Part shown: positions 3,382-19,678 of the stretch, piece by piece | Layout: each line of letters starts with the position of its first letter | Position numbering within the stretch: the first letter of the stretch is position 1 | Virus record (IMG/VR): IMGVR_UViG_3300015360_000216 | Span: 1-22,268 of that record | Reading direction: 5' to 3' (one strand) | Source of the DNA: a virus | DNA length: 22,268 nucleotides | The notes under the pieces: model-generated | The model's input: the letters and a program-made list of their open reading frames with translations, nothing else | Told to the model about the DNA's origin: nothing | Database searches by the model: none | Translations under genes and position numbers: made by a program

Positions 3382-3391
3382 AAATCACCCC

Positions 3392-5347
3392 TTATTGTGG
3401 ACCTGTGCATGATATGAAAAACGGGATATTATCAAGTGCTCCACCCGTTGTTGAGTTACTAGTTCTCGCCCTAACAAACGTGCTTGAAATTGGCGTACTA
3501 GACGAAATGCTGCATTTGTCATTTAAATTAGGGCTGTATGATGTGCATTGGCAATTCGGGCTGCTACTGAAAATTTGTGCCCCTAAATTTAAACTTGTGT
3601 CACCAGCGCCATTATCTACCACTGAAGAGATCCACGCCCCATCCTGCGCCGTAATTGTAGGCACTGAAGCCGCCACAGTTATTAAAGCGGTTACAGTTCT
3701 AAAATTACCGCTAGTAGAGCCCTTCATTAAATTCTGCAATGCCGTGAAAATCGGAGCAGGCAATTGTTCGCCAGACTTATTTATTCTTATGTAAATCGGT
3801 GGATCAGCAGTGAAACCGGTTACATATACAATACCCCCTGTGCCCCCGGATTTTGAACCGTACAATTTTATGCTGTTTCTCCCGGAGATCAGCGCAAATG
3901 TGCCCTTGACCCTAAGCGAAGCCCTGGCTTGATCTGTGTCACTCGATGGATCACTAATATAAGTTATGTCGTTGCCGTCAAGCACAACGGTGTCGCTACC
4001 CTCCGCTGTAGTAACTAATTTTAGCTGACTCTCAGAAGTTATGCTTTCTAGAGGAACAGTAAACTCAACATCATAAGTGCCCGCCGTGGGTACATTACAA
4101 GTTACGCCCACTTGTTCTGTTCCTGCGCAAGTTGTGCCGGTTGACGAAGCAGCATCGCAAGTTATCTCACAGGTGTTTACATTATTCGTAAGAGTTAGAT
4201 TTGCGTTAGTTACTTTGCTCATTGTCACGAGTGACGTAGTAAGAGGAACGTCAGCCGTTCCTAAAATTGAGCCTTCGTATCTCCATGCGGTGGTCTCGAA
4301 AGTCAGAGCCTCAGCTGAAGAGAGTGGATAACGAACCACTTCAAAAGATAATGACCCAGATGACGTGCCTAATGTCGTCCCATCTGTGTTCGAGATATTA
4401 ACGCTTCCGGCACCGTCTTCAAGGGCCTGAAGCTTAAAGGTTTTTGCCGAGGCATTCGCAATATTAACGTACATACTGCAAGACATCATTTCGCCGCCGT
4501 TTCCACCGGTTGCGGTCACTTGATCGTGAACACAAATTGGCCCACTCGTCGCACCGTCCGTAACTCTAAATTGTCGAACGTTAGACACGGCTGAAGAGTA
4601 AGAAGATGTAAAAGTAACTCTGACAACATAGGCACCAGGCGAAAGTGACGGGAAAACAATTTGCGGCAAGTCAGTGTCAGTTGTTGTTACTGTCTGTGAA
4701 GAATATGCAACTGTGATGGCAGGACATGATGCATCTGTTGGAAAGTCTGCAAATGTCGCCGAATTTAGCGGCCAATCACAATCCGCAGTCGGCGCAAAAC
4801 TTGCCCTTGCGACAAGAGTTGTTTGACTTAATTGAAGAGAATTTCTATCGCTTCCGATGAAAGCATTATCAACGCGAATCAACCCAGGGTTTGCCACATT
4901 CGCAATAAGTCTTAACGTGAGAGTATCTGTCGATACAGTAGGGCAATCAAAGTACGCAGTTACAGCCAACCCAACATTCGGGCTTGTTGTAGATGCAACA
5001 TCTGCTTCGGCAACAACTGTTGTGCCGTTTAGAAATGCTTGTATTTTATAATCCGCGCTAGCGCCTGTAGAGTATTGATATTTCAATTCACCAGCACATT
5101 TTCTGCCGATAAGACCAATCCCAGACGCCTTTGCCGAGGTGCTTAAAGTTTGATTTAAAGCTGAGGCATCCCAAGTTCCGGAGTGTTTACCATAAAGCTG
5201 AGTCGCGCTATCAGTGAGAAATGCGCCACCACTTGCCACCCATTCAGCTCGACGAGCTTCAAAATTACCATTCTTAAGTAAATTTGTTTCCTGCGCATTG
5301 GCAAAACAACCAAATAAAAAAGTTATTAAAAATATTAAATTACCCAA
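3392..5347 (-). CDS. Large Cys-rich exported protein with carbohydrate-binding-like N-terminus, in tail-fibre position
   Basis: A 651-residue protein. The start is TTG at 5347, supported by AGAGGTG at 5352-5358, and overlaps the previous gene by 8 bases. Residues 1-18 (MGNLIFLITFLFGCFANA) are a strongly hydrophobic signal peptide with a canonical ANA|QE site, although the n-region lacks Lys or Arg. The mature start NLLKNGNFE...W (residues 22-36) resembles the beginning of CBM4/9-like galactose-binding modules. The rest is Ser/Thr/Gly-rich and probably beta-sandwich, with 14 cysteines in the mature part, including close pairs (TCEITC, NCQC). The neighbouring 435-residue tail protein has one cysteine. 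Its position between the fibre base and lysis genes suggests an adhesin or fibre. LFGC could also be read as a weak lipobox. Confidence 0.75.
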   Translation of the reverse strand: MGNLIFLITFLFGCFANAQETNLLKNGNFEARRAEWVASGGAFLTDSATQLYGKHSGTWDASALNQTLSTSAKASGIGLIGRKCAGELKYQYSTGASADYKIQAFLNGTTVVAEADVASTTSPNVGLAVTAYFDCPTVSTDTLTLRLIANVANPGLIRVDNAFIGSDRNSLQLSQTTLVARASFAPTADCDWPLNSATFADFPTDASCPAITVAYSSQTVTTTDTDLPQIVFPSLSPGAYVVRVTFTSSYSSAVSNVRQFRVTDGATSGPICVHDQVTATGGNGGEMMSCSMYVNIANASAKTFKLQALEDGAGSVNISNTDGTTLGTSSGSLSFEVVRYPLSSAEALTFETTAWRYEGSILGTADVPLTTSLVTMSKVTNANLTLTNNVNTCEITCDAASSTGTTCAGTEQVGVTCNVPTAGTYDVEFTVPLESITSESQLKLVTTAEGSDTVVLDGNDITYISDPSSDTDQARASLRVKGTFALISGRNSIKLYGSKSGGTGGIVYVTGFTADPPIYIRINKSGEQLPAPIFTALQNLMKGSTSGNFRTVTALITVAASVPTITAQDGAWISSVVDNGAGDTSLNLGAQIFSSSPNCQCTSYSPNLNDKCSISSSTPISSTFVRARTSNSTTGGALDNIPFFISCTGPQ

Positions 5348-6647
5348 ATTTCACCTCTGTTGTAGATGGTACCATTCTTAATTCATTAGTATCTTCAGAT
5401 CCTGCCGGAGCTATTCTTGTCAGCTCAACCCGCAGCATATCCCCTGGATTAACTGCAAATCCATTTATTAAACCAGATGCGTCTGTTAAATTAGTTGTTA
5501 TTTCTCGAAACTCATTTGCATTGTCGTTCGTAATATCACCACTGTTTTGAGTATGCTGATTAGTGCTTGAGTTTACAGCGTCCTGGTTTTTTCTTGCCAA
5601 ACTAGTCACCGTTTGCATTTTCCATTGGAGAGTTGCGCTTGGGCTATATAAACCTAAAAACATTTTAATTTGCCGACCTGTTAAATAACCTTGAGGCACT
5701 TTTAAATATAGAGTTTCTTTTTGGCTTAAGCCTTGAGCAAATTTTTTAACCTCTTGGTCAAATTCTTCTTCAGCTAATGAATCACCGATCCATCTTGCGC
5801 CGCCACCGCCACCGCCGCCACCGGAACCAACCGGAGTAACAGTTCCTCCAGATTCTCTTACGAATAAGAGTCCACCTTTATTATAAATTCTAATGTTAGA
5901 TGCCGCCGGAGCCGCCGGATCAGTAACTCTGTCTAAAAAATCATTTTGTCTAGAAGTTCCGTCTCTTAATAACCCGTCTGCTTCAGACAAGGCTTGTTGA
6001 ATTGTAAGAGCAGCACTTGGAGTTAATTTTACAAAAGCAAGAGAGTTTACAGTTGCAGATCCAGCAACGGGTAAAAGGGTCCGAGTATCTGTTACCGCGC
6101 CAGCCCCTGACATTCCAGTTACCGCAGTTACTAATAAATTGGCAATTTTAATATATCCAGCCGGAGTAGATGGAATCGCCGGAGCGCCAGAAGGAGTACC
6201 ATCTACAACCAAAAACTCAGCTTGCCATTCTTTAGAAACAACTAAATTTTGATTACTAATTACTGAAGTAACGGGAGCTTTATATTTTCTCGATTCTGTA
6301 GATCCATCAACTCTAGCCGCTTTTACGCAAACAATATCAATTCTATTGTTCGTAAGATCAGGAGCAGATAAATTTAATGTTGTCGAACCAGATCTATATA
6401 AAAGCCTTCTCGTTGGCTCAGGATCAACTTGTGTTCCATCAGTTTGGAATCCAGCCCCAGCATTGGCTGAAACTGAAGTAGGCGACACATAGCTAACAAT
6501 CATGCTATCAGAAAAAAAAGCATTTCCAGCTCTTTGCAGCATTTCATATATGACCCTGTCGTAAAGCTCTCGCTCTACAGTAGCCCCAACCTTGTTTAAA
6601 TCTTCAAATACGACCTCTTGGCCGTCATTAAAATTTCGTCTTGCCAT
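5340..6647 (-). CDS. Tail fibre base / baseplate-distal structural protein with Gly8 linker
   Basis: A 435-residue protein directly following tail protein I with a two-base gap (TAA AA ATG). The N-terminal part (NDGQEVVFEDLNKV) resembles the start of fibre-connecting proteins that bind the baseplate. Residues about 240-272 (DPAAPAASNIRIYNKGGLLF) match a segment frequent in phage fibre-type proteins. An eight-glycine run at 276-283 separates this from a C-terminal beta-rich domain (LTDASGLINGFAVNPGDMLR near the end). It has no signal peptide and only one cysteine. It probably links receptor-binding proteins to the baseplate. The general structural assignment is good; the exact position in the virion is inferred. 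Confidence 0.72.
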   Translation of the reverse strand: MARRNFNDGQEVVFEDLNKVGATVERELYDRVIYEMLQRAGNAFFSDSMIVSYVSPTSVSANAGAGFQTDGTQVDPEPTRRLLYRSGSTTLNLSAPDLTNNRIDIVCVKAARVDGSTESRKYKAPVTSVISNQNLVVSKEWQAEFLVVDGTPSGAPAIPSTPAGYIKIANLLVTAVTGMSGAGAVTDTRTLLPVAGSATVNSLAFVKLTPSAALTIQQALSEADGLLRDGTSRQNDFLDRVTDPAAPAASNIRIYNKGGLLFVRESGGTVTPVGSGGGGGGGGARWIGDSLAEEEFDQEVKKFAQGLSQKETLYLKVPQGYLTGRQIKMFLGLYSPSATLQWKMQTVTSLARKNQDAVNSSTNQHTQNSGDITNDNANEFREITTNLTDASGLINGFAVNPGDMLRVELTRIAPAGSEDTNELRMVPSTTEVKFG

Positions 6648-6649
6648 TT

Positions 6650-7264
6650 TTAGCCCGCCCTCTCAATTAGTCGGTATAATGTCCCTAATGCTTTATTTCT
6701 ATTCACTGACTCAATTATTCTATTAAACAAATCTAATCCAGAATCATTTCTGCCTATAAAATCTTCTCGATCCACAAAGTATTCTCTACTATAGAAAGAA
6801 TATGGCGCGTGAACCTGTCTGTCTACAATGATCGAAAACGTGTTTATTATCGCATTTATTAAAATGTCGCCCCTGTCGGAAAAATACTCTCTATCAAAAA
6901 AAGGCCCACCGTTGAAATCTTCTCTTATTTCTGCAAAACCCACCTCGAGCAGAGCGTCAACAATTTCTTTAATTGCTGGGCAATTAGTAGTGTTCGTTAT
7001 GTTTTTTATGCGTATTGCAAAAGCCGGATCTAACTCCGCGTCATATCTGAAAAGATTTCTTTCAAATCCATGCTCTGACAAATAAGCGGCTTGGGCTTGG
7101 CATATATATGTTTCTTTTGTGTGATCGTCTACTGCCTGTCCAAGCCTCTCTAATATAGCGGCCATGCCGTATAAAACAGCCTCTTGATTCTCTACTTGCT
7201 CAAACCACCATTGCGGTAGCCAACCCTTGAGCGATAAATACCAATCGTCTTTTGATTTAGACAA
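6650..7264 (-). CDS. Baseplate/tail protein I-like (P2 gpI, Mu gp48 type)
   Basis: A 204-residue protein encoded after baseplate J, the place of gpI-like proteins that join the baseplate to tail fibres. It starts at TTG 7264, overlapping the J stop by eight bases. The N-terminal helices (WLPQWWFEQVENQEAVLYGM) and the Tyr/Phe-rich repeats FFDREYFSDRGD and YSREYFVDREDFIGR are visible. The C-terminal NRIIESVNRNKALGTLYRLI is typical of the family's final helix. The similar REYF-DR blocks look like an internal duplication. Assignment rests on length, order and fold-type pattern. Confidence 0.75.
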   Translation of the reverse strand: MSKSKDDWYLSLKGWLPQWWFEQVENQEAVLYGMAAILERLGQAVDDHTKETYICQAQAAYLSEHGFERNLFRYDAELDPAFAIRIKNITNTTNCPAIKEIVDALLEVGFAEIREDFNGGPFFDREYFSDRGDILINAIINTFSIIVDRQVHAPYSFYSREYFVDREDFIGRNDSGLDLFNRIIESVNRNKALGTLYRLIERAG

Positions 7265-8441
7265 TAGTCACCGTCCCTGGAATTATCTTATCTGTTGCTG
7301 TGGCCGACACATTGCCGACCGGAACGCTAGTATTAAAATCAGTCAAATCATTAGTGCCTGACGGCCCCCAAATAGCCATAATTGCCAACTTTGCCAGCCC
7401 CTTGTCGAATCCTGTGCCAATGGGCCTATCTCTTAGATATTGAGCCATTGAATCTATAATTCTTTGTGGATCGCTGGCAAATTCAGTAAAACTTGGCCCA
7501 CTTGGATTAAGAACAATTGATGCGCTCCAGTTAATAGAAAGCGCAACCGCGCTTATAGTTTCAACCTTCACGCCGCAAGCTCTAATCACCAAAACAGCAG
7601 CATCAACAAGATTTATAAGAGCTAGAGACGCCACCCCGTTAATATCAGCAACAAAAAGTCTTACTCTTGGAATCCTGAAATAAGTCCCAACATTCGTGCT
7701 TGTTGCTATATCCCACTCCCTAACCGCAATAGAATCCTCTATGGCTGTGGCCGTCTCAATGCCTGGCACGTTAAGAGCCGCAGCCTCAATAGCCGCCTTC
7801 GTAGCGCCCCGAAGTGTTTCAATCTTATTTCTAATGAACTCTCGATATTCTGCATCGGTATCTTCTTGTTCTCCGCCAGAAAATATGGCCGCGTTTGTCA
7901 CAACAACAGTAGGATCCGTTAAAGCTGTCTGTATTACTATTACTTGGCCAATCCCGACATTTCCGTCTGCCCCAGCTACAGAAGCCTGAACCGAGGCGTT
8001 TATTGTCAATCCCGTCATTGTAACATTTGAAATGGTCGCAAAACTTTGCTCTACTCCATTGGCGTTTTTCTTAGTTTTAACTATTGTTCCGGCTAAAATA
8101 GATACGTTTCCAGCTCCCGTTGTCGGCCTAGAAAAATTAGCCACCCCAACAGCCGGAGCCGCAGGAGGACGAGCAAAAGAAGTGCCGAAATGATCCGTAG
8201 CCAAAAGCTCAAGATCATCAGGCCCACCCGTCACCTCTGGCCCGTTTGAAGTAGCGAAAAAAGTCTTTGCAAACTGATCTATAATTAACTTGGTTACTTC
8301 TTGCCCGGCAGTACTAAAACCTCCGCCAAGAGAATCAAGTTTTGAACCATCTTCAAAGTCGGTTAGATCAGGGTTTCTAGCCTGAACCTCATTTTTAAAA
8401 AGATCGTATAATTCTTGCTGACTTGGTACTTGTGTTGCCAT
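7257..8441 (-). CDS. Baseplate J-like protein (gpJ / Mu gp47 / T4 gp6 family)
   Basis: A 394-residue wedge protein that builds the baseplate ring. The opening (QQELYDLFKNEVQARNPDLT, then EDGSKLDSLGG) is characteristic: a long N-terminal helix followed by a GS-D loop. The centre has RPPAAPAVGVANFSRPTTGA and VSILAGTIVKT, typical of the family beta domain, and GEQEDTDAEYREFIRNKIET followed by LRGATKAAIEAAALNVPGI, the conserved helix motif of J proteins. It follows the gp25-like gene with a TAATG overlap and precedes tail protein I, the standard order. Confidence 0.9.
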   Translation of the reverse strand: MATQVPSQQELYDLFKNEVQARNPDLTDFEDGSKLDSLGGGFSTAGQEVTKLIIDQFAKTFFATSNGPEVTGGPDDLELLATDHFGTSFARPPAAPAVGVANFSRPTTGAGNVSILAGTIVKTKKNANGVEQSFATISNVTMTGLTINASVQASVAGADGNVGIGQVIVIQTALTDPTVVVTNAAIFSGGEQEDTDAEYREFIRNKIETLRGATKAAIEAAALNVPGIETATAIEDSIAVREWDIATSTNVGTYFRIPRVRLFVADINGVASLALINLVDAAVLVIRACGVKVETISAVALSINWSASIVLNPSGPSFTEFASDPQRIIDSMAQYLRDRPIGTGFDKGLAKLAIMAIWGPSGTNDLTDFNTSVPVGNVSATATDKIIPGTVTIV

Positions 8442-8842
8442 TATTCATTCTCCAAAAAAGGCTTAAACAAAAGCTCAATTTCATCATAACCGATTGCCTT
8501 TATTCTGACAAAAATCTTAACCACTTCGGGTCTGTTATCATCTACTATTATCTTAATGCCTGTAACAGCCTCAACTCTAAAATCTTTCCGGAATTGTTCG
8601 TCTATTTCACTAGCTAATCGGCGTTGGTTATCCAAACTATTAAGAGCATTTATAAAATCCTTTAAACTAACCCCGTAGTCTGGCCTATGGACTAAGCTCC
8701 CTTTTTGAGTTATCAGACGATGGTATAATGCCATCCTTAGATTATTAAGGCCAGAAACAACGTCCAAATCGCCGTCCGCTGATTTAATTAAGTCTTTATC
8801 GTGCACCAAATCCAATAAATATGCTTCTGCTATGTTTGCCAT
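8441..8842 (-). CDS. Baseplate wedge protein, gp25/gpW-like
   Basis: A 133-residue protein matching the small gp25-like wedge family that nucleates the sheath and contacts J. It shows the pattern GDLDVVSGLNNLRMALYHRL followed by TQKGSLVHRPDYG, where the loop before PDYG is the family hallmark, and a C-terminal beta strand region (VKIFVRIKAIGYDEI). Usual family length is about 110-140 residues. It sits between the 71-residue protein and J with one-base overlaps (TAATG) on both sides. Confidence 0.88.
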   Translation of the reverse strand: MANIAEAYLLDLVHDKDLIKSADGDLDVVSGLNNLRMALYHRLITQKGSLVHRPDYGVSLKDFINALNSLDNQRRLASEIDEQFRKDFRVEAVTGIKIIVDDNRPEVVKIFVRIKAIGYDEIELLFKPFLENE

Positions 8843-9057
8843 TAGGTTATTGTCCCCGTTCCTGTAACTGGACCAGCGTTTTGAGGAGCTAATAAAGCCG
8901 TTGGGTTAACAACCGCATTTGACTTAATTTCATCAACAACAGCTTTTGCTATCGCATTGGCAAACTTTTGAAGCATAGCAGCATCATCCGGAGCACCAGA
9001 CAGGGCTATAATTTCAGTCTGAATCTTTGTCGATAGACTTGCTTGTGTTAATGCCAA
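8842..9057 (-). CDS. Small baseplate-associated protein (71 residues)
   Basis: It starts at TTG 9057, directly after the spike stop codon (TAG TTG), with CGGAG about six bases upstream. The sequence has a helix with Ala-rich character (MLQKFANAIAKAVVDEIKSN) and ends in a Gly/Thr tail (APQNAGPVTGTGTIT). Small proteins with this helix plus GPVTGxGxIT ending are common between spike and wedge genes of contractile-tail phages. Their function is unknown to me. A structural or assembly role in the spike region is inferred from position. Confidence 0.7.
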   Translation of the reverse strand: MALTQASLSTKIQTEIIALSGAPDDAAMLQKFANAIAKAVVDEIKSNAVVNPTALLAPQNAGPVTGTGTIT

Positions 9058-9669
9058 CTATTTCTCCGTCTTACTTAAATCAGACAACATCACTGCGTCA
9101 TCTACCGGACTAGATTTTATAGCCGTAAATGCAGCAGCATTATCTGGAACAGCCGTTAAATACCCAAGATTACCTATATGCTTATGCGCCGCAGTAGCGG
9201 CCAAATCTGAGCTGTATGACGCTTTAAACGTATCCCCAAGAACAAGTCGCTCATTTCCCGCCAGATCTCCTCTGACTAAATTTATCTCATTCGGGCTAGA
9301 TATAAAAGCCTTCTTATTAGGTAGCGTTTTCATAACTAAATGGCCGTTAATGGCCTGTAAAGGTATTTTATCCTCTGTGCTAGTGCATCGTCTTAATATA
9401 AAGGCTTCATCTGCTTGTCCGTCCAAATAGCCAACTATTACCAAATCATTAACGCTTGGAAACTGGAATATTCCCGCCTCTGGCCCAACAGCCTCCCATG
9501 ACATAGTGCAAATCATCTTTATTTCGTCCGGAAATATATTAACCTTGGCTTTTAGTGAAGATCTGTCAGCGGAAACGCTTAATTGCACAATTACGCCAAT
9601 TGCAAGGTGGAGCCTATCGTCCCTAAAAACCTCTCGCAACTCTTGCAGACCCAATGACTTATTTGCCAT
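9058..9669 (-). CDS. Baseplate spike / assembly protein, gpV-like
   Basis: A 203-residue protein with an N-terminal OB-fold-like domain: LAIGVIVQLSV begins it, WEAVGPEAGIFQFPSVNDL and VIVGYLDGQADEAFILRR complete it, and the latter block is a conserved gpV/Mu gp45 feature. The C-terminal part is beta-rich (INGHLVMKTL, NEINLVRGDLAGNERLVLGD), consistent with a short trimeric spike, and ends in an AHKHIGNLGYLTAVP segment often seen in these proteins. It would cap the tail tube and pierce the cell envelope. It follows the hub gene by a TAATG overlap. There is no lysozyme domain. Confidence 0.85.
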   Translation of the reverse strand: MANKSLGLQELREVFRDDRLHLAIGVIVQLSVSADRSSLKAKVNIFPDEIKMICTMSWEAVGPEAGIFQFPSVNDLVIVGYLDGQADEAFILRRCTSTEDKIPLQAINGHLVMKTLPNKKAFISSPNEINLVRGDLAGNERLVLGDTFKASYSSDLAATAAHKHIGNLGYLTAVPDNAAAFTAIKSSPVDDAVMLSDLSKTEK

Positions 9670-11198
9670 TATTTGCTCTCCACAAGATTCTGCGGAATTT
9701 CGATAAAATTTATAAATGATATATCCATATCAAAACCATTGTCCTGCGACAGCTTAAAGTTCACCGACTTAGTAAAAAAAGGCGTGTCAAATCTGGTCAA
9801 CGCCTCTGCCATAGCATCGGCTATTTGCGCCCTCTTGCCAACATATCCTCTAGACCTTAAAAAGTTCGCTATCGCCTTTCTACGGCCCTCGATGCTCTCT
9901 GGCTTCTCTTTGTCTTTCTGTCTATCCCTAGCCGCTGGCGGCAATAGCTTGTTCAGCCCTTCCATGTCGCCCTGGTCTATCCTAATTTCCAAAGGTGTTC
10001 CAACTCTAAACTTAGTAGAGTCAAAAAATCTGTCTGCTCCGCTATTAGACTCAGGGCTAAATATCTTCATTTCTCTTGTAGATAATTTTCCCTCAATCTG
10101 CTGTCTGCCAAGCTCCTCATAAATCTTTTCGCCAATTGAAACAAGGCGCTCTTTGCTTACAAGTGCAAGCGATACTTTAAAAGTAATATATGGAGCCACT
10201 TCACCGTCTGGCTCTCCAGTTGCCCCTGGCTCTGTGTTGCCTTTTCCACCAGCCTTTGCAACTGGAAGCATAACTGGCTTTCTGCTAACGCCAATTTCTT
10301 TCGACCATGCCTCTGTAGCTTCTTCAGGAATCCTTGCTATTTCTAATTTTTTTCCATCTGCGTTTAATGCTACAATTTTAATGTTAAAGCCTTTTTGCCT
10401 ACCTAACTTTCTTTCAAACTCCAATGACTTTACGTTTCTGCCATAAATAAAAACCTTAGATTTAGACCTGTCATATAAATTTCTTGGCTTTGTTATAATT
10501 AGCTTATTGAGTGATATAAAAGCTATCAAACCAGAATCATTTATAAGGCCCTGGATGATGTCCCAATAACTTCTGCTTTTTCTGCCATTCTTTGCGCCGT
10601 CCATTTCGCCTTTTCCAGCAGTTTCTCCAGCTAGAATTGGCAAATCTTTTTCGGTTAAACCCTGAAGCTCTATTTCTATTCCCTGCCTTGGATCTGCAAT
10701 ATCAAATTTTGTCGAAGGTAATTGATCCAGCAAATCCCTGATAAGTTTGTCAACTGGCTTTGTCAGAAGAATTGGCTCGCCCAGATATTCTCTGTCAATT
10801 AAAAGAGCCGTAAAATCTCTGCCCTCGATAGTAACAAGTCTGTTTTCTTCGTCTAACTGAATCCTGTCACTATCTGCGTACCCCTGAAATACAAGATTAT
10901 TTTTGCTAGGAATAATAGTATCAAGCGACCTACTACCGTCTTGCTTAAAAATAGCCTTCTTGTTCTCTATGTGAATAGAAACTCCTAGAGATCTAATAAT
11001 TCTTGGATCAAATGGCAAATTTCTATAATCAATTGTGGCGCTAAAAGTATCGGCTTCATTATAGCTATTTAAATTTACGTCAAGATCCTTAGCCACCGCA
11101 GTAAACTCGTAAGGCTTTTGAAGCCTTACAGACTTACTGCTGAAGTCCTCAAGCAGAACCCTTAAAACTATAACTCCCTGTGGGTAGTAGGCGCTCAT
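9669..11198 (-). CDS. Baseplate hub protein, late control D (gpD)-like
   Basis: A 509-residue protein of the P2 gpD/Mu gp44/T4 gp27 hub type that links tail tube and spike. Evidence: an N-terminal beta domain (YNEADTFSATIDYRNLPFDP); the central segments ENRLVTIEGRDFTALLIDRE and YWDIIQGLINDSGLIAFI, typical of gpD-like proteins; KVFIYGRNVKSLEFERKLG; and a C-terminal strand region (FDTPFFTKSVNFKLSQDNGF). A low-complexity Gly-rich insert (AGGKGNTEPGATGEPDGE) and a charged Lys/Arg region near residues 410-450 make it longer than many homologues. Neighbours are the LysM baseplate gene and the gpV-like spike, the expected order. Confidence 0.85.
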   Translation of the reverse strand: MSAYYPQGVIVLRVLLEDFSSKSVRLQKPYEFTAVAKDLDVNLNSYNEADTFSATIDYRNLPFDPRIIRSLGVSIHIENKKAIFKQDGSRSLDTIIPSKNNLVFQGYADSDRIQLDEENRLVTIEGRDFTALLIDREYLGEPILLTKPVDKLIRDLLDQLPSTKFDIADPRQGIEIELQGLTEKDLPILAGETAGKGEMDGAKNGRKSRSYWDIIQGLINDSGLIAFISLNKLIITKPRNLYDRSKSKVFIYGRNVKSLEFERKLGRQKGFNIKIVALNADGKKLEIARIPEEATEAWSKEIGVSRKPVMLPVAKAGGKGNTEPGATGEPDGEVAPYITFKVSLALVSKERLVSIGEKIYEELGRQQIEGKLSTREMKIFSPESNSGADRFFDSTKFRVGTPLEIRIDQGDMEGLNKLLPPAARDRQKDKEKPESIEGRRKAIANFLRSRGYVGKRAQIADAMAEALTRFDTPFFTKSVNFKLSQDNGFDMDISFINFIEIPQNLVESK

Positions 11199-12400: not shown

Positions 12401-14207
12401 TACTGCCTCCCGTCGCTAATTTCTGCGAACTGCCGAAATTCGTGACCTTAGAGCCTGTAGAGTTCATAGCCGCCTTTAATAATTGATCTCTAATTGTAAA
12501 AGCAACTCTGTCTGGCTCCATAAGATCTTTGAAGTCGTTTTTAATTTCTACTTTGCCTATGTTGACAGTCTGACCAGAAAGACCAGTGCCGTCATCTATT
12601 TTTGATGCGATTTCAGGAAAAAGATCGGCAAGCATATCCTGAGTACCAATATCAAAAGCATCTCCAAGTGCTGAACTTTCAAGAAGCTCAGTGATAGGTT
12701 TATCCATAATTAGACTAATCATAGTACCTACTCCTTGAAGTGTCGACATAGCAAGGGCAACTGCCTTAGTTACAAAATGTAAGCTTGAAACAAACTTATC
12801 TAAAAACCAGAAAAGCATATCCATAACCGGACTAACAGCAGCGAGTCTTGCCAACTCATCAAATCCCGCAATAAACACTGCGGATATCCTGCCCATTAGA
12901 AGCCCAATCTCTGTAAATCTATTCATAAAACCAAGAAGCGTTTCTGCAAATATAATTTTTACCTTTGCAGCAACCCTGGAAAGGAATTGCAGCACACCAA
13001 TAACGAGAAGGAGGGGAACGAAAACTTTAGTTAATACAACAAAAAATCCATTTAGAAAACCAAGAAATCCTTTGGCTGGGCCAGCTAAAAATACCCCCAT
13101 CTTGCCGCCGATGACACTTTTGCTAAAAAAGTTTACAACCTTTATAAGACCAGCAAGCGCAGTACTTACAACAGGGATTTTTATACCAAGCCAAGCAAGC
13201 GCTTCACCAATCCCTACTAATGCCCCAATTTTGAAAATAAATGAGCCGGCGCTATTCAAATCACTCTTTAAAGACCTTAATTGCATAATAGTAGCGTAAA
13301 GACTTTTTAGATCTCTAGTAAACGGCTCTATAACTAATGCTAATCTTTGAACAGCAATAGCCAAATCATTTTGAATAAATTTATTAACTTTTGTTAAAAT
13401 CTGAACAATAGTTCGAGATAAAACATCACCCAACGTCTTAAGAATAGAACCTAGTCCGGTCAGTGAGTCTTTGAGAATCTGCATCTGGCCGCCTACAGAA
13501 TTTATCATTCTTTCGACAACCGCCGTATCACCAGAAAATTCCTCTAATGCAGCAGTTAATAGTTTAATTCTCTCTAAAAGAGGTAATTTTCTAAACTTCT
13601 CAGCATTATTTATGTAGCCTTGCATTGCTTTTGTGTCCTGTGTCAGTGTCATAAATAACTGATCTCCGGCATCTATGTTTCCAAGCATAGCCCTCTGCAA
13701 ATTATCTTGAGCCATAAAAGGGTCCATTCCAAGAGTCGGCGCAGCCTTTAAGAATGATCTGCCTAGATCGATTGATGTATCAATTGCCTTCGAACCACCT
13801 AATTTTGGAGCTAGAATTGGAGTCAGAACCTTAGTTATTCCAGCTAATGCCTCTGCTGGTAAACCAAACTCTCGCGCCTTCGCTATAATAGAACCCATTT
13901 TTTTATCAGCAAAATCCATTCTATCAGCAAAAGATCCAGAACCTCTACCGAGAACATTAGCCAAGGCAACTTGTGTTTGAAGAAACTTCTCGGAGCTTTG
14001 AATTGCCGTCGCGAATATGCCTAATATGCCGCCGCCACCAGTAAAACTTGCTCCGATTCCTAGTGTTAATTTTTCAAATGAGATTAGTGCTTGGTCTGCC
14101 GCATTTGATACGCCCTGAACTGCGCTCTGAAGCGCGCCAGTGTTCGCAATGGCAGATCCAGCTTCAAATCTAAACTCTGTTAGTACGGTAAAGGCCTTAT
14201 TAATCAC
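12393..14207 (-). CDS. Tail tape measure protein
   Basis: A 604-residue protein that sets tail length and is threaded through the tube. Its GTG start at 14207 has GGGAG at 14214-14218 and lies two bases after the stop of the frameshifted chaperone. It is mostly helical and Ala/Leu/Gly-rich, with a large hydrophobic middle (about residues 330-420; FLNGFFVVLTKVFVPLLLVI). Position after the chaperone pair is diagnostic. With the usual rule of about 0.15 nm per residue, the tail would be near 90 nm, which is an inference. No lytic domain is seen. Confidence 0.88.
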   Translation of the reverse strand: MINKAFTVLTEFRFEAGSAIANTGALQSAVQGVSNAADQALISFEKLTLGIGASFTGGGGILGIFATAIQSSEKFLQTQVALANVLGRGSGSFADRMDFADKKMGSIIAKAREFGLPAEALAGITKVLTPILAPKLGGSKAIDTSIDLGRSFLKAAPTLGMDPFMAQDNLQRAMLGNIDAGDQLFMTLTQDTKAMQGYINNAEKFRKLPLLERIKLLTAALEEFSGDTAVVERMINSVGGQMQILKDSLTGLGSILKTLGDVLSRTIVQILTKVNKFIQNDLAIAVQRLALVIEPFTRDLKSLYATIMQLRSLKSDLNSAGSFIFKIGALVGIGEALAWLGIKIPVVSTALAGLIKVVNFFSKSVIGGKMGVFLAGPAKGFLGFLNGFFVVLTKVFVPLLLVIGVLQFLSRVAAKVKIIFAETLLGFMNRFTEIGLLMGRISAVFIAGFDELARLAAVSPVMDMLFWFLDKFVSSLHFVTKAVALAMSTLQGVGTMISLIMDKPITELLESSALGDAFDIGTQDMLADLFPEIASKIDDGTGLSGQTVNIGKVEIKNDFKDLMEPDRVAFTIRDQLLKAAMNSTGSKVTNFGSSQKLATGGSSG

Positions 14208-14209
14208 TA

Positions 14210-14664
14210 TTAGCTCCCGCCAGACTCTCGCTCAATTATTTCTGCGAGAACTTCTGATAAAATCTTAAACTGATAAGGCTCCAGGTCTAAAACGTCTACA
14301 GGTCTAAGACTTGTATATCTGCAAATCCATGTTATATGCTTCCAGAGGTCATAATTTCTATTTCCGGTACGTTTCCCAAATCACCAACATCAGTGATCTT
14401 TCCCATTACGCCCATTAGCTGCATATATTCTTGATATGTTAATATTGCGTCCAAGTCTTCTTTTTCAACTGCCTTGATCGTTTTACCGTCAACTTCAACT
14501 AGAAGAATTTTTAATAACTCTTTTTGCATGGCTATTGCCATCGCAATTTTATTATCGTCTCCGTGACGGCCACAAGCCTTTGCTGCAAGCTCTTGATCTT
14601 TGATCTTAATTTGCCTGAGCACTATTTCTTTTTTAGATGATAATACCACCTTATAAACGTCCAT
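14210..14664 (-). CDS. Tail assembly chaperone, -1 frameshift (GT-like) fusion
   Basis: Ribosomes slipping one base back at 14371-14380 read 98 residues of the short form plus 53 new residues, ending at TAA 14210-14212 (151 residues in total). The -1 frame has a TGA immediately before the slippery site and is then open to the end. The extension contains TWICRYTSLRPVDVL and LEPYQFKILSEVLAEIIERE, resembling the T part of chaperone fusions in other phages (Trp, Cys, Tyr-Thr and helix pattern). Its stop lies two bases before the tape measure start. Frameshifted chaperone pairs are a well-established feature of tailed phages. Confidence 0.82.
14332..14664 (-). CDS. Tail assembly chaperone, short (G-like) form
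   Basis: A 110-residue protein between tube and tape measure. AAGGAG at 14673-14678 supports the ATG. It shows a mixed start (VYKVVLSSKKEIVLRQIKIK), helices in the centre and a C-terminal acidic segment. This is the place and size of the gpE/gpG-type chaperone that coats the tape measure while the tube polymerises. Most ribosomes would end at TAA 14332-14334 and give this form. A slippery site near codon 97 gives a longer form. Confidence 0.82.
   Translation of the reverse strand: MDVYKVVLSSKKEIVLRQIKIKDQELAAKACGRHGDDNKIAMAIAMQKELLKILLVEVDGKTIKAVEKEDLDAILTYQEYMQLMGVMGKITDVGDLGNVPEIEIMTSGSI
14371..14380 (-). promoter_or_regulatory. Tandem -1 ribosomal frameshift slippery sites
   Basis: The minus strand reads TTTGGGAAAC in the chaperone frame as T TTG GGA AAC. 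It contains two overlapping in-frame X XXY YYZ heptamers, TTTGGGA and GGGAAAC. The second differs from phage lambda's GGGAAAG by the last base. The -1 frame is closed by TGA just upstream and open for 53 codons downstream. I did not find a convincing downstream pseudoknot. Confidence 0.82.
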
Positions 14665-14694
14665 AACATTAACTCCTTGTTAACTATTAACTTA

Positions 14695-15120
14695 TTAAAT
14701 TGCTATTCGACCAGACGCTTGAAAATCAAGACGCTTAGTCATTTTCTCAGTCATTCCTGATTGACGCTTGCTCATTTTCCACTGAACGTCAAAATATACA
14801 TAAGAACGCATTGTGCCGTTTCCGTATTCCTCAGAACTAAGGAAAGTATAATCACTGACACCGATGCCATTTAGATTATTAGTAATAAGCGCGTCAATAA
14901 ACTCATCAACAGAAGCATCTTTTACTTCCATCTCAAGAGAACCTGACCAACCGTCTATGCTTTGGTCTCCCTCTGCGAGTGGTCGCCCAACATAGAATGT
15001 TCTTTGAAAACTTGCGTCCATACTTACATCTACCGACGTAATGTCCACAATGTTAGATAACTGACCGTTTTCAAAAATTTTGAATTGACCCTTATGACCG
15101 CGAATACTTGGATTAGCCAT
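14695..15120 (-). CDS. Tail tube protein
   Basis: A 141-residue protein directly downstream of the sheath, as in most contractile-tail phages. It is a beta-rich tube monomer: GHKGQFKIFENGQLSNIVDI opens the first strands, followed by DVSMDASFQRTFYVGR with DGWSGSLEMEV, and the end KRLDFQASGRIAI fits the family's closing strand. The tube is the inner channel for the tape measure and DNA. GGAAGGAAA upstream of the ATG is a fair ribosome site. Confidence 0.88.
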   Translation of the reverse strand: MANPSIRGHKGQFKIFENGQLSNIVDITSVDVSMDASFQRTFYVGRPLAEGDQSIDGWSGSLEMEVKDASVDEFIDALITNNLNGIGVSDYTFLSSEEYGNGTMRSYVYFDVQWKMSKRQSGMTEKMTKRLDFQASGRIAI

Positions 15121-15121
15121 T

Positions 15122-16552
15122 TTAATTTCCTTCCGTTACTACGACAGATTCACCGATCTCTGCTGTCAGTACAATGTACCGCATAGAGCTGAAGATCCTG
15201 CGCTTGTATAAAATTTTAAACATTCCCGAAGCAACTACCGCATCCGTGTTAAGACTCTCCGTATCAACTAGAAGGGGAGCACCACCTTTAACATCTTGCG
15301 AACCTGGCAAAATGCCATCACGCACCAGCCTAGTATCAAATTCTAAAATAGCACCTTTAACTTCTGTTCTTTTTTCTAAGCTATTCACATCATTTTGATA
15401 ATTCTTCAAGAAAAAGGCGATTGAATCCTGTAGGAAATCTGCCATTCTTCGGCGCAAAATTGTTCTTTTTGAACTACTTGCAATCTGAGTAGTTACCGCG
15501 TTTTTAACCAAGAACCCAATGTCTGAATCAAGCTCAAGTGAGCAAACACCAGCCGCATCCAAAGCTATAAAGCCATTTCTTGACTCTTTATACTTAAGAT
15601 CAGTTATGCCACTTAAAAATTTAGTGTTTTGAGTAAATGACAAAGCAACGTGTGGGCTTATTTGTGTAAAGATCGCAGCAAGCCAAGACGCCGGAGGAGT
15701 AAATTCTAAAACCCCATCCACTCTTGTTTGCACATAAGGCCAAGCGTAGATAATTCGACCGTCTGAGTCTCTATTGTTTGCTGCATCTAAAATCGCCGCA
15801 GCTCTATTGTCACCCTCTGCGCCGCAAGCAATAACCATCTTATCTTGCGTTTCTGCCGCGTGAACTTTTAGATAACCATTTCTTACCGAATTGTAAACAT
15901 CTAAGAAAAGAACATTTCCTGCCTTTTCCACTCCAGCTTTAGCAATTGCCGTCTCATAATCAACATTCGCAATGGTGCCATCTGCCCCTGTAGCCAACAC
16001 TGTAGCTACTTGGTTCGCTGGCTCTGATGCGGTGCTTAGAACAGTAACATCAACCAACTTTGATTCAGCAAATGTTAGCGAAGTTACACCAGCAATCAAA
16101 ACATCATCATATACTTCAACTGGCAAAACAGCCCCAACCCCAGTGTCTTGAATCGTGTATTTTTTGCCAACATTTGATCCTGCAGCTATTGTCACTTTAA
16201 TGTCATTACCGTAAGCGCCGACATATTTAGCGTCAAATTTAATCTTAGTGTCTGCCGTCTGAGTAGCCTTAACAGCCAAAGCCGCAGCAGCCCTGATAAT
16301 TCTCAATTGGCCAAACTTTTTGTTCTTTAATTGCTTATTTCCAGAATAAGCACTCTTACCGTAAAGTTCTAAAAATTCACCTATCGAAGAAATCGGCAAA
16401 GATAACTCCAGTGGCCCTCTTTGAAACTGACCAACTAAAATTCCTACATTCGCGGCTACGCCACCAATCGACGGAGGTGGAGCTTGCTCATCTATAATAA
16501 TCCCATCAATGTCATCAAACTGAGTAGGATCGTTTGTTCTAAAAATTCCCAT
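15122..16552 (-). CDS. Contractile tail sheath protein
   Basis: A 476-residue sheath subunit of the Phage_sheath_1 type. Hallmarks are the N-terminal VGILVGQFQRGPLELSLPIS with IGEFLELYGKS, a beta-rich inserted domain (about 85-210), and the C-terminal core: GFIALDAAGVCSLELDSDI, then RRRMADFLQDSIAFFLKNYQ and the closing strands ILEFDTRLVRDGI and MRYIVLTAEIGESVVV. AAGGGAG at 16559-16565 precedes the ATG. Its presence establishes a contractile (myovirus-type) tail. Confidence 0.93.
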   Translation of the reverse strand: MGIFRTNDPTQFDDIDGIIIDEQAPPPSIGGVAANVGILVGQFQRGPLELSLPISSIGEFLELYGKSAYSGNKQLKNKKFGQLRIIRAAAALAVKATQTADTKIKFDAKYVGAYGNDIKVTIAAGSNVGKKYTIQDTGVGAVLPVEVYDDVLIAGVTSLTFAESKLVDVTVLSTASEPANQVATVLATGADGTIANVDYETAIAKAGVEKAGNVLFLDVYNSVRNGYLKVHAAETQDKMVIACGAEGDNRAAAILDAANNRDSDGRIIYAWPYVQTRVDGVLEFTPPASWLAAIFTQISPHVALSFTQNTKFLSGITDLKYKESRNGFIALDAAGVCSLELDSDIGFLVKNAVTTQIASSSKRTILRRRMADFLQDSIAFFLKNYQNDVNSLEKRTEVKGAILEFDTRLVRDGILPGSQDVKGGAPLLVDTESLNTDAVVASGMFKILYKRRIFSSMRYIVLTAEIGESVVVTEGN

Positions 16553-16571
16553 TATTTTCTCCCTTTAATCT

Positions 16572-17177
16572 TTAATTTGTTACAACAACCTTAGTAGAAA
16601 TTTCACTTTCTGGAACTGCTTCTATTTGTGCAGGAGTTGGAGTCACAGTTATAATAAATTCTTTCCTGTCTCTTATCGCTTTGCAAGTAGCAAGTAACGA
16701 AAGCGTGGCTCGCCACTCATCCCGCTGCGACCTTTCATCACTGTCGGCGAACTCATGACCCACATAAAGATAATCACACAACGAATCAAAATACTCATTA
16801 AGTTTTAATGTTAAGCCCATAGGACTAATCTTTGGGTTTAATGAATTAAACGTAGCGTCAAAAAGATCATCTCTTTCTTCTTTAGATCCGGCCCAGATAT
16901 CTAGTTGTATTCCAACTTCGTAGTCTCCTACAACGTATAAGACCTTTGCCTTGTTGTTAACAATTGTTCCTGTACTTATTCGATAAGGACTCATCTCTGG
17001 CGAAAACTCATAGTTTTTAGAAATAATAGAAACACTTGGCATTTTAAATGCGACGCTTGCATTAGGAAACTCATCGTAAAATTCTTTAATGCCAGGAACA
17101 TTTAATTTTAAATATTCGCCAAGAGCTTTTGGCAAAACCTCACTTATAGACTCATTTGATAATGTGCTATCTGACAC
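16572..17177 (-). CDS. Tail terminator-like (tail completion) protein
   Basis: A 201-residue protein directly upstream of the sheath. It starts at GTG 17177, which overlaps the previous gene by 11 bases, with AAGGAAG nine bases upstream. The pattern ALGEYLKLNVPGIKEFYDEF, then MPSVSIISKNYEF, and particularly VGDYEVGIQLDIWAGSKEER with DLFDATFNSLNP, matches tail terminator proteins that cap the tube and join it to the neck. The C-terminal 50 residues (after RDEWRATLSLLAT) are Glu/Thr/Pro-rich and may be flexible. Assignment is by pattern and position. Confidence 0.7.
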   Translation of the reverse strand: MSDSTLSNESISEVLPKALGEYLKLNVPGIKEFYDEFPNASVAFKMPSVSIISKNYEFSPEMSPYRISTGTIVNNKAKVLYVVGDYEVGIQLDIWAGSKEERDDLFDATFNSLNPKISPMGLTLKLNEYFDSLCDYLYVGHEFADSDERSQRDEWRATLSLLATCKAIRDRKEFIITVTPTPAQIEAVPESEISTKVVVTN

Positions 17178-17625
17178 GTTTTAATTCTTCCTTAATATTA
17201 TCAATAATCATTGGAATGGCCTTCTCTAATATATTCCTTGGCTTCATTCCCACTCTTGAGATCTTGTTCTGCACTCCTCGGGCCAAACCCCAAACTTCTT
17301 TAGAGTATTTTGGTGGCTGGCTCGAATCTTTCAAAACTCTTTTTGCCCAGGCAAGAAGTGGAGCAATTGGAGGCGTAAATGGCCTTGCACCCTTCTCTAT
17401 AATCGGCGCGTGAGGCGCATAATTTCCCAAAATAGCACTTGTTTCTGTTTCAGTAAAATCCCAACTTGAAGCATACGATCCCGTATCAACTGGGCTTGCC
17501 GCCACAAGGTCAGGAATTGATCTCATAATTCCACTAACAACAGACGCCTTTTGTTCCTTCAGCGTAGCCTCTGAAAACTCCTTAATTTCTCTTGAAAAGT
17601 TTTCTAGCTGTACCGTTTTGGCCAT
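17167..17625 (-). CDS. HK97 gp10-like head-tail joining / neck protein
   Basis: A 152-residue protein. The central block ASPVDTGSYASSWDF, GNYAPHAPIIEKGARPFTPP and the following LLAWAKRVL is the standard gp10-like pattern (PVDTG loop, xYAxxxExG turn, helix). The C-terminal PRNILEKAIPMIIDNIKEEL is the final helix. Such proteins act at the head-tail interface or in tail completion. The ATG directly follows the upstream TAA. Location before the terminator-like gene is as expected. Confidence 0.82.
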   Translation of the reverse strand: MAKTVQLENFSREIKEFSEATLKEQKASVVSGIMRSIPDLVAASPVDTGSYASSWDFTETETSAILGNYAPHAPIIEKGARPFTPPIAPLLAWAKRVLKDSSQPPKYSKEVWGLARGVQNKISRVGMKPRNILEKAIPMIIDNIKEELKRVR

Positions 17626-18096
17626 TTAAAACCCTGTAGATTGTTTCTTTATATGCGCCCATTCCTTATAAGCTCTCTGCGTAGCTGCGCCGAGAGGAGC
17701 CGGAGCTTTTTTCTTGTCTATTTTCTCTCCAACTAAGTCTTTTGCAGCCATTCTTCTAACTTTAGAAGAAGTTGATCTTCCCTCGGCGAATCCATAAAGG
17801 CTAAGTGCAGACATTGCACCAATTCCAGCAACAAGCAATCCCATGCCCTTGTGCTTTGTAAACTTTGAAGCGACAGCTCCAGCAGCCGCAACAACTAACG
17901 AAGCACGACCAGCCTTTACGCCCTGTTTTGATAATTTTTCGTCCCTCTTTGCCGTTTTCTTCATGTATTTGGATCCCATTTTACCAATAGCAACGCCTTT
18001 TAATGCCTTCTGAACAGTCGCCTTACCATCATCTTTTATAGGGATAACCTTGCCTCTAACTCTTATAAATCGAACCTTACCCTCTTGAGCAGCCAT
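17626..18096 (-). CDS. Basic membrane-like protein with RFIRVRGKVIPI motif, neck gene cluster
   Basis: A 156-residue protein, strongly basic, with an N-terminal KVRFIRVRGKVIPIKDDG at residues 7-24. I associate this motif with other phage-encoded proteins of unknown function. Two hydrophobic segments follow, about 65-79 (ASLVVAAAGAVASKF) and 85-105 (GMGLLVAGIGAMSALSLYGF), compatible with a transmembrane hairpin or a protein released during DNA entry. The C-terminal part is Lys/Ala-rich. It has no signal peptide. It lies among neck genes, where a membrane protein is unexpected. Function unknown. Confidence 0.65.
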   Translation of the reverse strand: MAAQEGKVRFIRVRGKVIPIKDDGKATVQKALKGVAIGKMGSKYMKKTAKRDEKLSKQGVKAGRASLVVAAAGAVASKFTKHKGMGLLVAGIGAMSALSLYGFAEGRSTSSKVRRMAAKDLVGEKIDKKKAPAPLGAATQRAYKEWAHIKKQSTGF

Positions 18097-18097
18097 A

Positions 18098-18310
18098 TTA
18101 CTTACCTACTTTTGGCTCCAGTGCGCCCTGAACCATAACAATACCGCCGCCCAATTTCTGAGCTTCTTGGCCTCTGGGATTAGACACGCCCATTACAGTC
18201 TGACCCTTTAATGCCCCGCCTAGTCCCTGTGGACCTACTGCATGACCGAATGCAACTGGCTTCTCATAATGTCCTGACCCTGGTTTTCCTGCCTCATTTG
18301 ATCCATCCAT
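18098..18310 (-). CDS. Small glycine-rich protein, neck gene cluster
   Basis: A 70-residue protein. I chose ATG at 18310 because GAGGGG lies just upstream. TTG at 18316, overlapping the previous stop as TTGA, would add two residues. It is rich in Gly, Pro and Val (HAVGPQGLGGALKGQTVMGV, KLGGGIVMVQGALEPKVGK) with no cysteine. It does not match the PAAR spike proteins I know and I recognise no family. The conserved-looking spacing and coupling suggest a real gene of unknown function. Confidence 0.6.
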   Translation of the reverse strand: MDGSNEAGKPGSGHYEKPVAFGHAVGPQGLGGALKGQTVMGVSNPRGQEAQKLGGGIVMVQGALEPKVGK

Positions 18311-18312
18311 AC

Positions 18313-18738
18313 TCAACCCCTCTCGGTTTCATCTTGACTTACTTTTCTAATTTGAACATCCCATGTAACTAATTTCTCAACCACATTAACACAAGTGTAA
18401 TAGTGTTTTCCTAACTTATAAAACTTTTCTTTGTTCTTAGTATTAGTGATAGTCTTTAGTTGGCTCTCAGTGTATTTCGGCGAAATACCCTTTAAAATTA
18501 AGTCACCGGACTTAACCGCACCTGCCTCAGTTATATTTACATTATGGCTATAATCCATAATGCCAGGCGTAGGCATAATACGAGTCAAAACATCAGTAAA
18601 CGTACCGTCACCTTGCCGCTGACCGCTCCAAGTCCGCTCAACAATATCAACATACGATAGCTGTGCGCCAATGCCCTCTCTAATGCCTAGAATCTTGTCT
18701 ATGCAACCAGAAAGGCTTGCGCGTAAATTACCACTCAC
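18313..18738 (-). CDS. Probable head-closure / connector protein
   Basis: A 141-residue protein starting at GTG 18738, which overlaps the previous stop (GTGA). The pattern GIREGIGAQLSYVDIVERTW, a loop with GDGTFTDVLTRIMPTPGI, then GAVKSGDLILKGISPKYTE and a final strand (TWDVQIRKVSQDE) fits small beta-barrel head-closure proteins encoded after the capsid. Position between the 119-residue connector and the gp10-like gene agrees. Family identity is inferred from order and fold-type pattern. Confidence 0.6.
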   Translation of the reverse strand: MSGNLRASLSGCIDKILGIREGIGAQLSYVDIVERTWSGQRQGDGTFTDVLTRIMPTPGIMDYSHNVNITEAGAVKSGDLILKGISPKYTESQLKTITNTKNKEKFYKLGKHYYTCVNVVEKLVTWDVQIRKVSQDETERG

Positions 18739-19094
18739 GACACCACCGATACCATATTTCCGCTAGATTTCGTAATAGGTATGTCCAAGTGATCTGAAAG
18801 CTCTCGAATCAAGCGCATACGCTCCTTCTTGAGCATTTCAACCTCTCGTGGATTCATATCAATGTTGTCCACGCTCGAAGCGGCAAGCCTACACTTAGCT
18901 TCGTCCAAGCATTTGTCATACATCTCAAGGCGCTCTAATAGCCCTTTGGCTATGTTCTCAATGTCTATGTTAAGAGTAGACCCCAGCCGATTATTTACTA
19001 TTGAATTGTACTGACTAGACCCACTCACTAAAGTGAGTCCAGACCAGCCAAGATAGAAAACGACTTTATGCTTTTGCTTGCTTGTTAGGGCCAC
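18735..19094 (-). CDS. Probable head-tail connector protein
   Basis: A 119-residue mainly helical protein, first in the neck series after the capsid and decoration-position genes. It starts at GTG 19094 with AGAGG upstream, inside the end of the Lys-rich mini-gene. KQKHKVVFYLGWSGLTLVSG opens it, similar to the start of many connector proteins, followed by helices (IENIAKGLLERLEMYDKCLD, EVEMLKKERMRLIRELSDHL). It would bind the portal and extend the channel. Assigned by position and helical pattern only. Confidence 0.58.
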   Translation of the reverse strand: MALTSKQKHKVVFYLGWSGLTLVSGSSQYNSIVNNRLGSTLNIDIENIAKGLLERLEMYDKCLDEAKCRLAASSVDNIDMNPREVEMLKKERMRLIRELSDHLDIPITKSSGNMVSVVS

Positions 19095-19185
19095 GCTTTT
19101 TTACCTCTTGCTTTAAAATAGGTTCCTCTTTTTTCTTCGGAGGAGCCATCTTCTTTTTATTGCGGTTTCTAAGCATCATTCCCAT
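19066..19185 (-). CDS. Lys-rich mini-protein (39 residues)
   Basis: A short ORF whose ATG follows the stop of the exported protein by one base (TAG C ATG) and which ends inside the connector gene, overlapping it by 29 bases. The product starts MGMMLRNRNKKKMAPPKKKE and is extremely basic, with a Pro-Lys-rich middle and KKRGPNKQAKA at the end. No ribosome site is obvious, so translation would be coupled. It fills an otherwise empty 92-base gap. It could bind DNA or the connector; function unknown. Confidence 0.5.
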   Translation of the reverse strand: MGMMLRNRNKKKMAPPKKKEEPILKQEVKKRGPNKQAKA

Positions 19186-19186
19186 G

Positions 19187-19630
19187 CTATTTTACCGCAT
19201 AGTGAACGCAAAGCATAGCTCCGGTCAAAGCAACATTTGTTCCAGCATCGGTTTCATCATAAACAACCGTTAGAATAGCGCCTGAAGCAATGTCTCGTTG
19301 AGCAGTAACTAAATTAAGCGGCTCTAAAGTGTTTGCAAGAAGTCCACTTTCATGAGCAGCTCTTGAATCAAGTTCTGCTACAACAGTCGCTCCTCTTCGC
19401 AACTCAACACTCACGTAATTAGTATCACTTGCGGTAACAGTACCACCGTTTACAAGAGAAACTGATAAAACTCTCCAGCCCTTACCGCCGACTGCGCCAC
19501 CCAAGAGAGTAGCATCTACGCTAGGGCTTCCTAGAGCAACACATCTAGCCTGTGGGTTATTCTCGTTATTTAAAGCGGCGTTAGCCACACACATTGTAAA
19601 CATCACCATTAAACTTAATAAATATTTCAT
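19187..19630 (-). CDS. Exported beta-rich protein in the capsid-decoration position
   Basis: A 147-residue protein. The start is ATG at 19630 with AGGAG at 19636-19640, five bases upstream. An in-frame ATG at 19675 would start inside the terminator stem and is rejected. Residues 1-18 (MKYLLSLMVMFTMCVANA) are a classical signal peptide: Lys, hydrophobic core and an ANA|AL site. The mature part is beta-rich (WRVLSVSLVNGGTVTASD, NYVSVELRRGATVVAELD, SGAILTVVYDETDAG) like small capsid decoration proteins, with two cysteines, C30 and C141, near its ends that could form a disulfide. The gene follows the capsid gene after a terminator. The secretion signal is unexpected for a decoration protein. Confidence 0.72.
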   Translation of the reverse strand: MKYLLSLMVMFTMCVANAALNNENNPQARCVALGSPSVDATLLGGAVGGKGWRVLSVSLVNGGTVTASDTNYVSVELRRGATVVAELDSRAAHESGLLANTLEPLNLVTAQRDIASGAILTVVYDETDAGTNVALTGAMLCVHYAVK

Positions 19631-19635
19631 TTTTT

Positions 19636-19640
19636 CTCCT
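19636..19640 (-). promoter_or_regulatory. Ribosome binding site that decides the start of the exported protein
   Basis: AGGAG followed by five A residues and ATG at 19630. It excludes the longer reading frame start at 19675 and places the signal peptide at the true N-terminus. Confidence 0.7.
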
Positions 19641-19641
19641 A

Positions 19642-19672
19642 AAAAGATAAAATAGCGGGGATTATTCCCCGC
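19642..19672 (-). terminator. Intrinsic terminator after the major capsid gene
   Basis: On the minus strand the capsid stop is followed by a perfect seven-base-pair GC-rich stem, GCGGGGA and TCCCCGC (19655-19661 with 19666-19672), with a four-base loop and then TATTTTATCTTTTT. This is a good Rho-independent terminator. Being inside the late operon, it is likely a partial terminator that raises capsid output over downstream genes. Confidence 0.75.
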
Positions 19673-19678
19673 CATTAA

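Follow-up and report, generated by a model that had tools for sequence, protein, structure and literature searches.

Some outer parts of the phages described here probably fold outside the host cytoplasm and then either join the particle or coat the cell. The window (the whole 22,268-base virus record IMGVR_UViG_3300015360_000216) comes, judging from its genes, from a contractile-tailed phage, and one of these genes matches an annotated tail sheath protein. Two genes in structural positions encode proteins with predicted N-terminal signal peptides: a capsid-cement-type protein next to the major capsid gene, and a cysteine-rich adhesin following the gene for a fibre base (Table 1). The original prediction was that both leaders end in ANA, that the mature proteins contain 2 and 14 cysteines, and that the 435-residue neighbour of the adhesin contains only one. 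All of this was confirmed, the two leaders to the base. The cement-type precursor reads MKYLLSLMVMFTMCVANA^ALNNEN... from an ATG start, with its cysteines at positions 30 and 141 of the precursor, and the adhesin precursor reads MGNLIFLITFLFGCFANA^QETNLL..., with one additional cysteine in the leader. On the sequence evidence below, we consider it very likely that both proteins are exported and very probable that their disulfides form.

Table 1. Positions of the features discussed, in window coordinates.
Feature	Position	Strand	Basis or remark
Predicted endolysin-type gene	2146-2673		PHROG endolysin family match
106-aa gene downstream of the adhesin	3061..3381	-	Leaderless in the window
Cys-rich multi-domain adhesin with signal peptide, 651 aa	3392..5347	-	Tail-fibre position
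C-terminal beta domain of adhesin, residues 549-651	3395..3703	-	Cys C599, C601, C612, C647
Second beta-rich domain of adhesin, residues 356-524	3776..4282	-	Family-conserved; C397/C407
TNF-like domain of adhesin, residues 176-340	4328..4822	-	Cys pair C190/C208; homologous to Bdellovibrio MAT fibre tip Bd2734
CBM4/16/22-like carbohydrate-binding domain of adhesin, residues 19-168	4844..5293	-	Cys pair C84/C135; VIA Z 15.1, rmsd 2.5 over 139 residues to 8ic1
Predicted signal peptide of adhesin, MGNLIFLITFLFGCFANA	5294..5347	-	TTG start; n-region without positive charge
Shine-Dalgarno GAGGTG of adhesin	5352..5357	-	Located inside the fibre-base gene, at its end
Fibre-base/tail protein, 435 aa, no leader, one Cys	5340..6647	-	Weak PHROG hits phrog_17470, phrog_3398
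Capsid-cement-type jelly-roll protein; precursor of 147 aa with N-terminal signal peptide, mature form of 129 aa	19187..19630	-	
Cys codon 141 (mature Cys123), last predicted strand	19208..19210	-	Alignment and model
Cys codon 30 (mature Cys12), first predicted strand	19541..19543	-	In 3/3 leader-bearing members; Ile in leaderless sister L008
Predicted signal peptide of cement-type protein, MKYLLSLMVMFTMCVANA	19577..19630	-	No counterpart in 22 leaderless relatives
Shine-Dalgarno AGGAG for the leader-bearing cement-type start	19636..19640	-	
Terminator-like hairpin separating capsid and cement-type genes	19651..19676	-	
Major capsid protein, no leader	19679..20524	-	phrog_544 major head protein E 2.5e-38; Pfam Phage_capsid_4

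One domain of the adhesin is homologous to the tip of a surface fibre of a predatory bacterium. The adhesin model had a pLDDT of 73 and a pTM of 0.37, and we regard the domain identities assigned in Table 1 as hardly open to doubt. By model comparison, the first domain also resembled domains of phage tailspikes. When the profile of the TNF-like domain was compared with solved structures, 8OKW was the one strong match (E 7e-15; the next was 0.24), and the adhesin model aligned to 8okw_B with Z 18.9 and rmsd 2.2 over 148 residues. The 8OKW structure covers the C-terminal part of Bd2734, which belongs to the Bdellovibrio MAT (mosaic adhesive trimeric) fibres; the proteins of this group bear signal peptides and stand on the surface of the predator (PMC10769870). 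Naming Bdellovibrionota as the host from this homology would be only a guess; a host search of 168 genomes of the phylum of L031 gave a single marginal match besides the genome of L031.

Judging from the gene that precedes it, the adhesin resembles the outer half of a tail fibre that is split between two genes. The adhesin start overlaps the end of the base gene by 8 nt (a gap of -8), and the gap ranged from -19 to +30 nt in 19 other loci measured. In three loci with no leader gene (L089, L094, and L097) the bases were longer (951, 561, and 743 aa, respectively) and had few cysteines. A relative of the base module in an isolated Bordetella phage is likewise short, so a short base is by itself no proof of a split fibre. 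Annotated tail fibres have an N-terminus that matches the L120 base module, and because of this match and the domain matches of the adhesin we read the latter as the putative exported distal part of such a fibre. We also considered an autonomous accessory gene for the adhesin, which is disfavoured by its contact with the base gene. Another long fibre-like reading frame, cut off by the contig end, lies at window positions 3-1463 on the minus strand.

Alternatively, the adhesin, and perhaps the cement-type protein too, could be exported and then either displayed on the infected cell or set free, without ever entering the virion. Such a protein may mask receptors, glue cells together, or act as a phage-encoded surface fibre of the Bdellovibrio type. 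That the proteins might stay on the surface of the dying cell had been suggested in the original prediction as a second outcome, and it gains real weight from the homology with the Bd2734 tip, which belongs to a fibre of predatory bacteria of the signal-peptide-bearing, surface-displayed MAT group (PMC10769870). The known relatives of the TNF-like domain, the Bdellovibrio MATs, function at the surface of bacteria and not on virions, and this counts against virion attachment. In addition, the adhesin gene sits between the structural and lysis genes, a common site for accessory genes. Against a fate restricted to the cell surface, in the window and in 19 of the 19 loci measured the adhesin start overlapped the gene before it or was no more than 30 nt away, and promoter-like sites were no commoner than in shuffled sequences, which argues against an independent accessory gene. 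The base gene was also shorter where a leader gene followed. A role as a surface adhesin is also hard to square with a capsid-cement fold. We regard the surface fate as possible, well short of an even chance.

Relatives of the adhesin were reached through gene order and a conserved 196-aa domain, by fetching contigs that extend past the baseplate gene. A direct search of viral contigs with the adhesin found no relative, and among annotated phages neither the adhesin nor the fibre base, the conserved 196-aa domain, or the L096 relative had a match. At the limits of PHROGs the window adhesin and those of seven relatives had no match, and the L091 and L113 adhesins matched unnamed families. For these adhesins, all Pfam matches fell below the cut-offs. 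A gene following the base and encoding a leader and several to many cysteines was found in L088, L090-L093, L095, L096, L098, L099, L100, and L113, and the search with the 196-aa domain gave further contigs with similar leader-bearing proteins. Other loci have several further leader-bearing candidates 3' of the adhesin. The product of the 106-aa gene is leaderless in the window and in L088; similar proteins of L095 and L121 bear leaders. At 3091-6606, L130 encodes a 1171-aa protein that follows a leader, matches Laminin_G_3, and has an odd number of cysteines (5).

The character of the leader was kept in the adhesin family, and its sequence was not. The family comprises about 20 uncultivated phages with leader-like N-termini throughout. 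Leaders were scored with a home-made script, not with SignalP, and were left uncalled in 2 of 25 members (L132 and L134), in which the script had shifted the start downstream; the N-termini from the first start were leader-like. The leaders were 15-27 residues long in most members, with small residues at -3 and -1 after a hydrophobic stretch, and leader identity was low beside a conserved mature start. Among the family members examined we saw no homologue without a leader. We rejected a lipoprotein reading of LFGC in the adhesin leader: of the 18 aligned members one has Cys14, and a Phe is unusual at -2.

The cysteines of the adhesin family varied in pairs. The mature count was even in 19 of the 20 complete members with a called leader, which share ancestry and are not independent. 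We scored co-occurrence of cysteines in an alignment of 18 rows. Columns 84 and 135 co-occurred in 16/16, columns 397 and 407 were present in 18/18, and columns 428 and 481 co-occurred in 17/17, the window being the one row of 18 without both. The pairs 190/208, 599/647, and 601/612 occurred together in 11/12, 14/16, and 5/6, respectively. The home-made scan called leaders in 43 of 500 open reading frames of at least 100 aa in related contigs. Among those of at least 200 aa with at least four cysteines, the ratio of even to odd mature counts was 25:1 with a called leader versus 35:16 without (Fisher p 0.004, which is not a strict probability because the rows are related).

The hydrophobic N-terminus might also remain uncleaved and serve as a membrane or virion anchor. 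Residues 2-13 of the adhesin are predicted, with low confidence, to form an N-terminal helix, and there is no Lys or Arg in the n-region; the lack of positive charge fits an anchor and counts against an export signal. The small residues at -3 and -1, the leader lengths, the low leader identity next to a conserved mature start, and the paired cysteines all argue for cleavage and export, and we consider an anchor improbable.

Export of the cement-type protein looks to have been gained once, judging from its relatives. Capsid searches gave 25 loci at first and more later, and in many loci the protein following the capsid has about 122-135 residues and often opens like MALNNENNP. In the window, L003, and L010 a signal peptide sits ahead of ALNN, whereas 22 members at the same locus are leaderless, begin at the mature N-terminus, and mostly have their own ribosome site. 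In a tree of these 25 members, the three with a leader formed one clade (support 98/91) with leaderless L008 as its sister (fork support 100/98); a single gain therefore fits. L008 has a cysteine near the C-terminus but Ile at the position of the first, and its upstream in-frame codons reach a stop before any start. Identity between the window and L003 was 6/18 in the leader and 91/129 in the mature part.

Homologues that lack the leader and start downstream at their own ribosome site, which the original prediction had set against export, were thus found for the cement family and not for the fibre-type protein. We take them to indicate derived addition of a leader and not a mistaken start, because the window gene has no start codon at its mature N-terminus. 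An artefact of start-site choice or assembly, with the real proteins starting downstream, is suggested by these leaderless homologues and is very improbable; we rejected it on the further grounds of the good Shine-Dalgarno sequence before the leader, a 100% identical copy of the gene in a second contig (L002), and the leaders of L003 and L010.

The leader and the cysteine pair of the cement-type protein occurred together. Both cysteines were present in 3/3 leader-bearing and 1/22 leaderless members (Fisher p 0.0017, kinship ignored). The one exception, leaderless L023, has cysteines at both aligned positions and counts against a coupling of leader and cysteines, and the small number of leader-bearing members (n=3) weakens the cement case. 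The claim that the proteins are exported and oxidised gained strong support by comparison: the character of the leader is kept, cysteines are present or absent in pairs, and leader and cysteine pair come together in the cement family. The cement-type gene is absent from near relatives such as L005 and L007 and therefore is, on this genomic evidence, dispensable, which likewise weakens the cement case. In most relatives folded, a hairpin likewise lies between the capsid and cement-type genes. L045 has a tandem gene pair (6909-7292 and 7352-8101), both resembling the leaderless cement-type protein. Two capsid relatives have head-module genes of other families with leader-like N-termini (L053, 5348-5707 and 5694-6707; L068, 8390-8719 and 8716-10089).

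By fold and gene position, the cement-type protein looks like a putative capsid binder. Its model (pLDDT 84) was nearly all beta, with the two cysteines in the first and last strands. The best VIA match was a chain of the KHP30 capsid (7dn2_1, Z 9.3, rmsd 3.1, 109 aligned). Capsid or cement chains of KHP40, BPP-1, Pam1, and GP4 were among the other matches, at Z 7.4-8.3; 7dou_4 reached Z 8.3 and 3j4u_H Z 8.2. CBM6 and plant-virus coats reached Z 7-8 too, so the jelly-roll fold alone is unspecific for cement.

We propose that these phages assemble in two compartments. Both proteins would leave via Sec, and their cysteines would pair as disulfides outside the cytoplasm. In the cement family, normally leaderless, one clade would have acquired a leader and a cysteine pair in the first and last strands. 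The fibre base would be made in the cytoplasm from the preceding gene, and the glycan-binding distal fibre would be translated beside it, often from an overlapping start, with a leader of its own. Once folded and oxidised in the periplasm, the outer parts would bind to completed particles as the envelope ruptures. Joining of particles in vitro is known for P22 tailspikes and lambda gpD. The two halves of the fibre would not come together until lysis, when proteins become diluted, and this counts against virion attachment. We judge attachment to be roughly an even call, and the explanation as a whole (export via Sec, oxidation, and outer parts joining finished particles) could equally prove right or wrong. 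The fuller proposal, with a core made in the cytoplasm, decoration and distal fibres exported, oxidised, and added at lysis, and cement export arising once, leader and disulfide together, is tentative, its chance falling somewhat below even.

Should the exported parts prove to join virions, the oxidising periplasm is a place where tailed phages can make disulfide-bonded outer parts. Should they remain on the cell instead, phages carry genes for surface fibres that are related to those of predatory bacteria. With either outcome, phage tail fibres and Bdellovibrio predation fibres are linked by a shared domain in leader-bearing genes. In a limited look at titles and abstracts of open-licence papers, we found none that describes tailed phages exporting outer parts of their virions. 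To our knowledge, a periplasmic oxidation route is known only for membrane-assembling phages, such as filamentous phages.

Filamentous phage coats (M13 pIII and pVIII) are likewise virion proteins made as preproteins using Sec; pIII is described as a Sec-dependent preprotein (PMC8310372). Filamentous phages are extruded without lysis, whereas the phages described here are tailed and have an endolysin-type gene. Lambda Lom and Bor and T5 Llp are late-expressed surface proteins of tailed phages with export signals, and in this they resemble the two proteins described here, but they lie outside the fibre and cement families. The cement-type protein shares with the jelly-roll cement proteins of Helicobacter phages KHP30 and KHP40, Bordetella phage BPP-1, cyanophage Pam1, and Ralstonia phage GP4 a similar predicted jelly-roll (Z 9.3-7.4), a mature size of about 125-135 residues, and a gene adjoining the major capsid gene, in an order kept in relatives. 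For such proteins, assembly in the cytoplasm without an export signal is the expectation; the 22 leaderless relatives conform, and the window clade departs by adding a signal peptide and a cysteine pair. As in YeP1, B23, and ST64B, whose tail fibre N-termini match the L120 base module, the adhesin gene follows baseplate genes. In those phages the matching gene encodes a longer tail or tail fibre protein, and in phage tail fibres the baseplate-attachment module is within the same chain; here the preceding gene supplies the base, and a separate leader-bearing gene supplies the distal part. The adhesin shares with Bdellovibrio MAT Bd2734 a signal peptide (the adhesin's by the home-made score), a phage-fibre-like make-up, and the homologous TNF-like domain, which is internal in the adhesin and the C-terminal tip in Bd2734. 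In MAT fibres the signal peptide is followed by a beta-rich domain that is conserved and spans about 130 aa. MAT fibres are encoded and used by the bacterium, whereas the adhesin is encoded in a phage structural operon.
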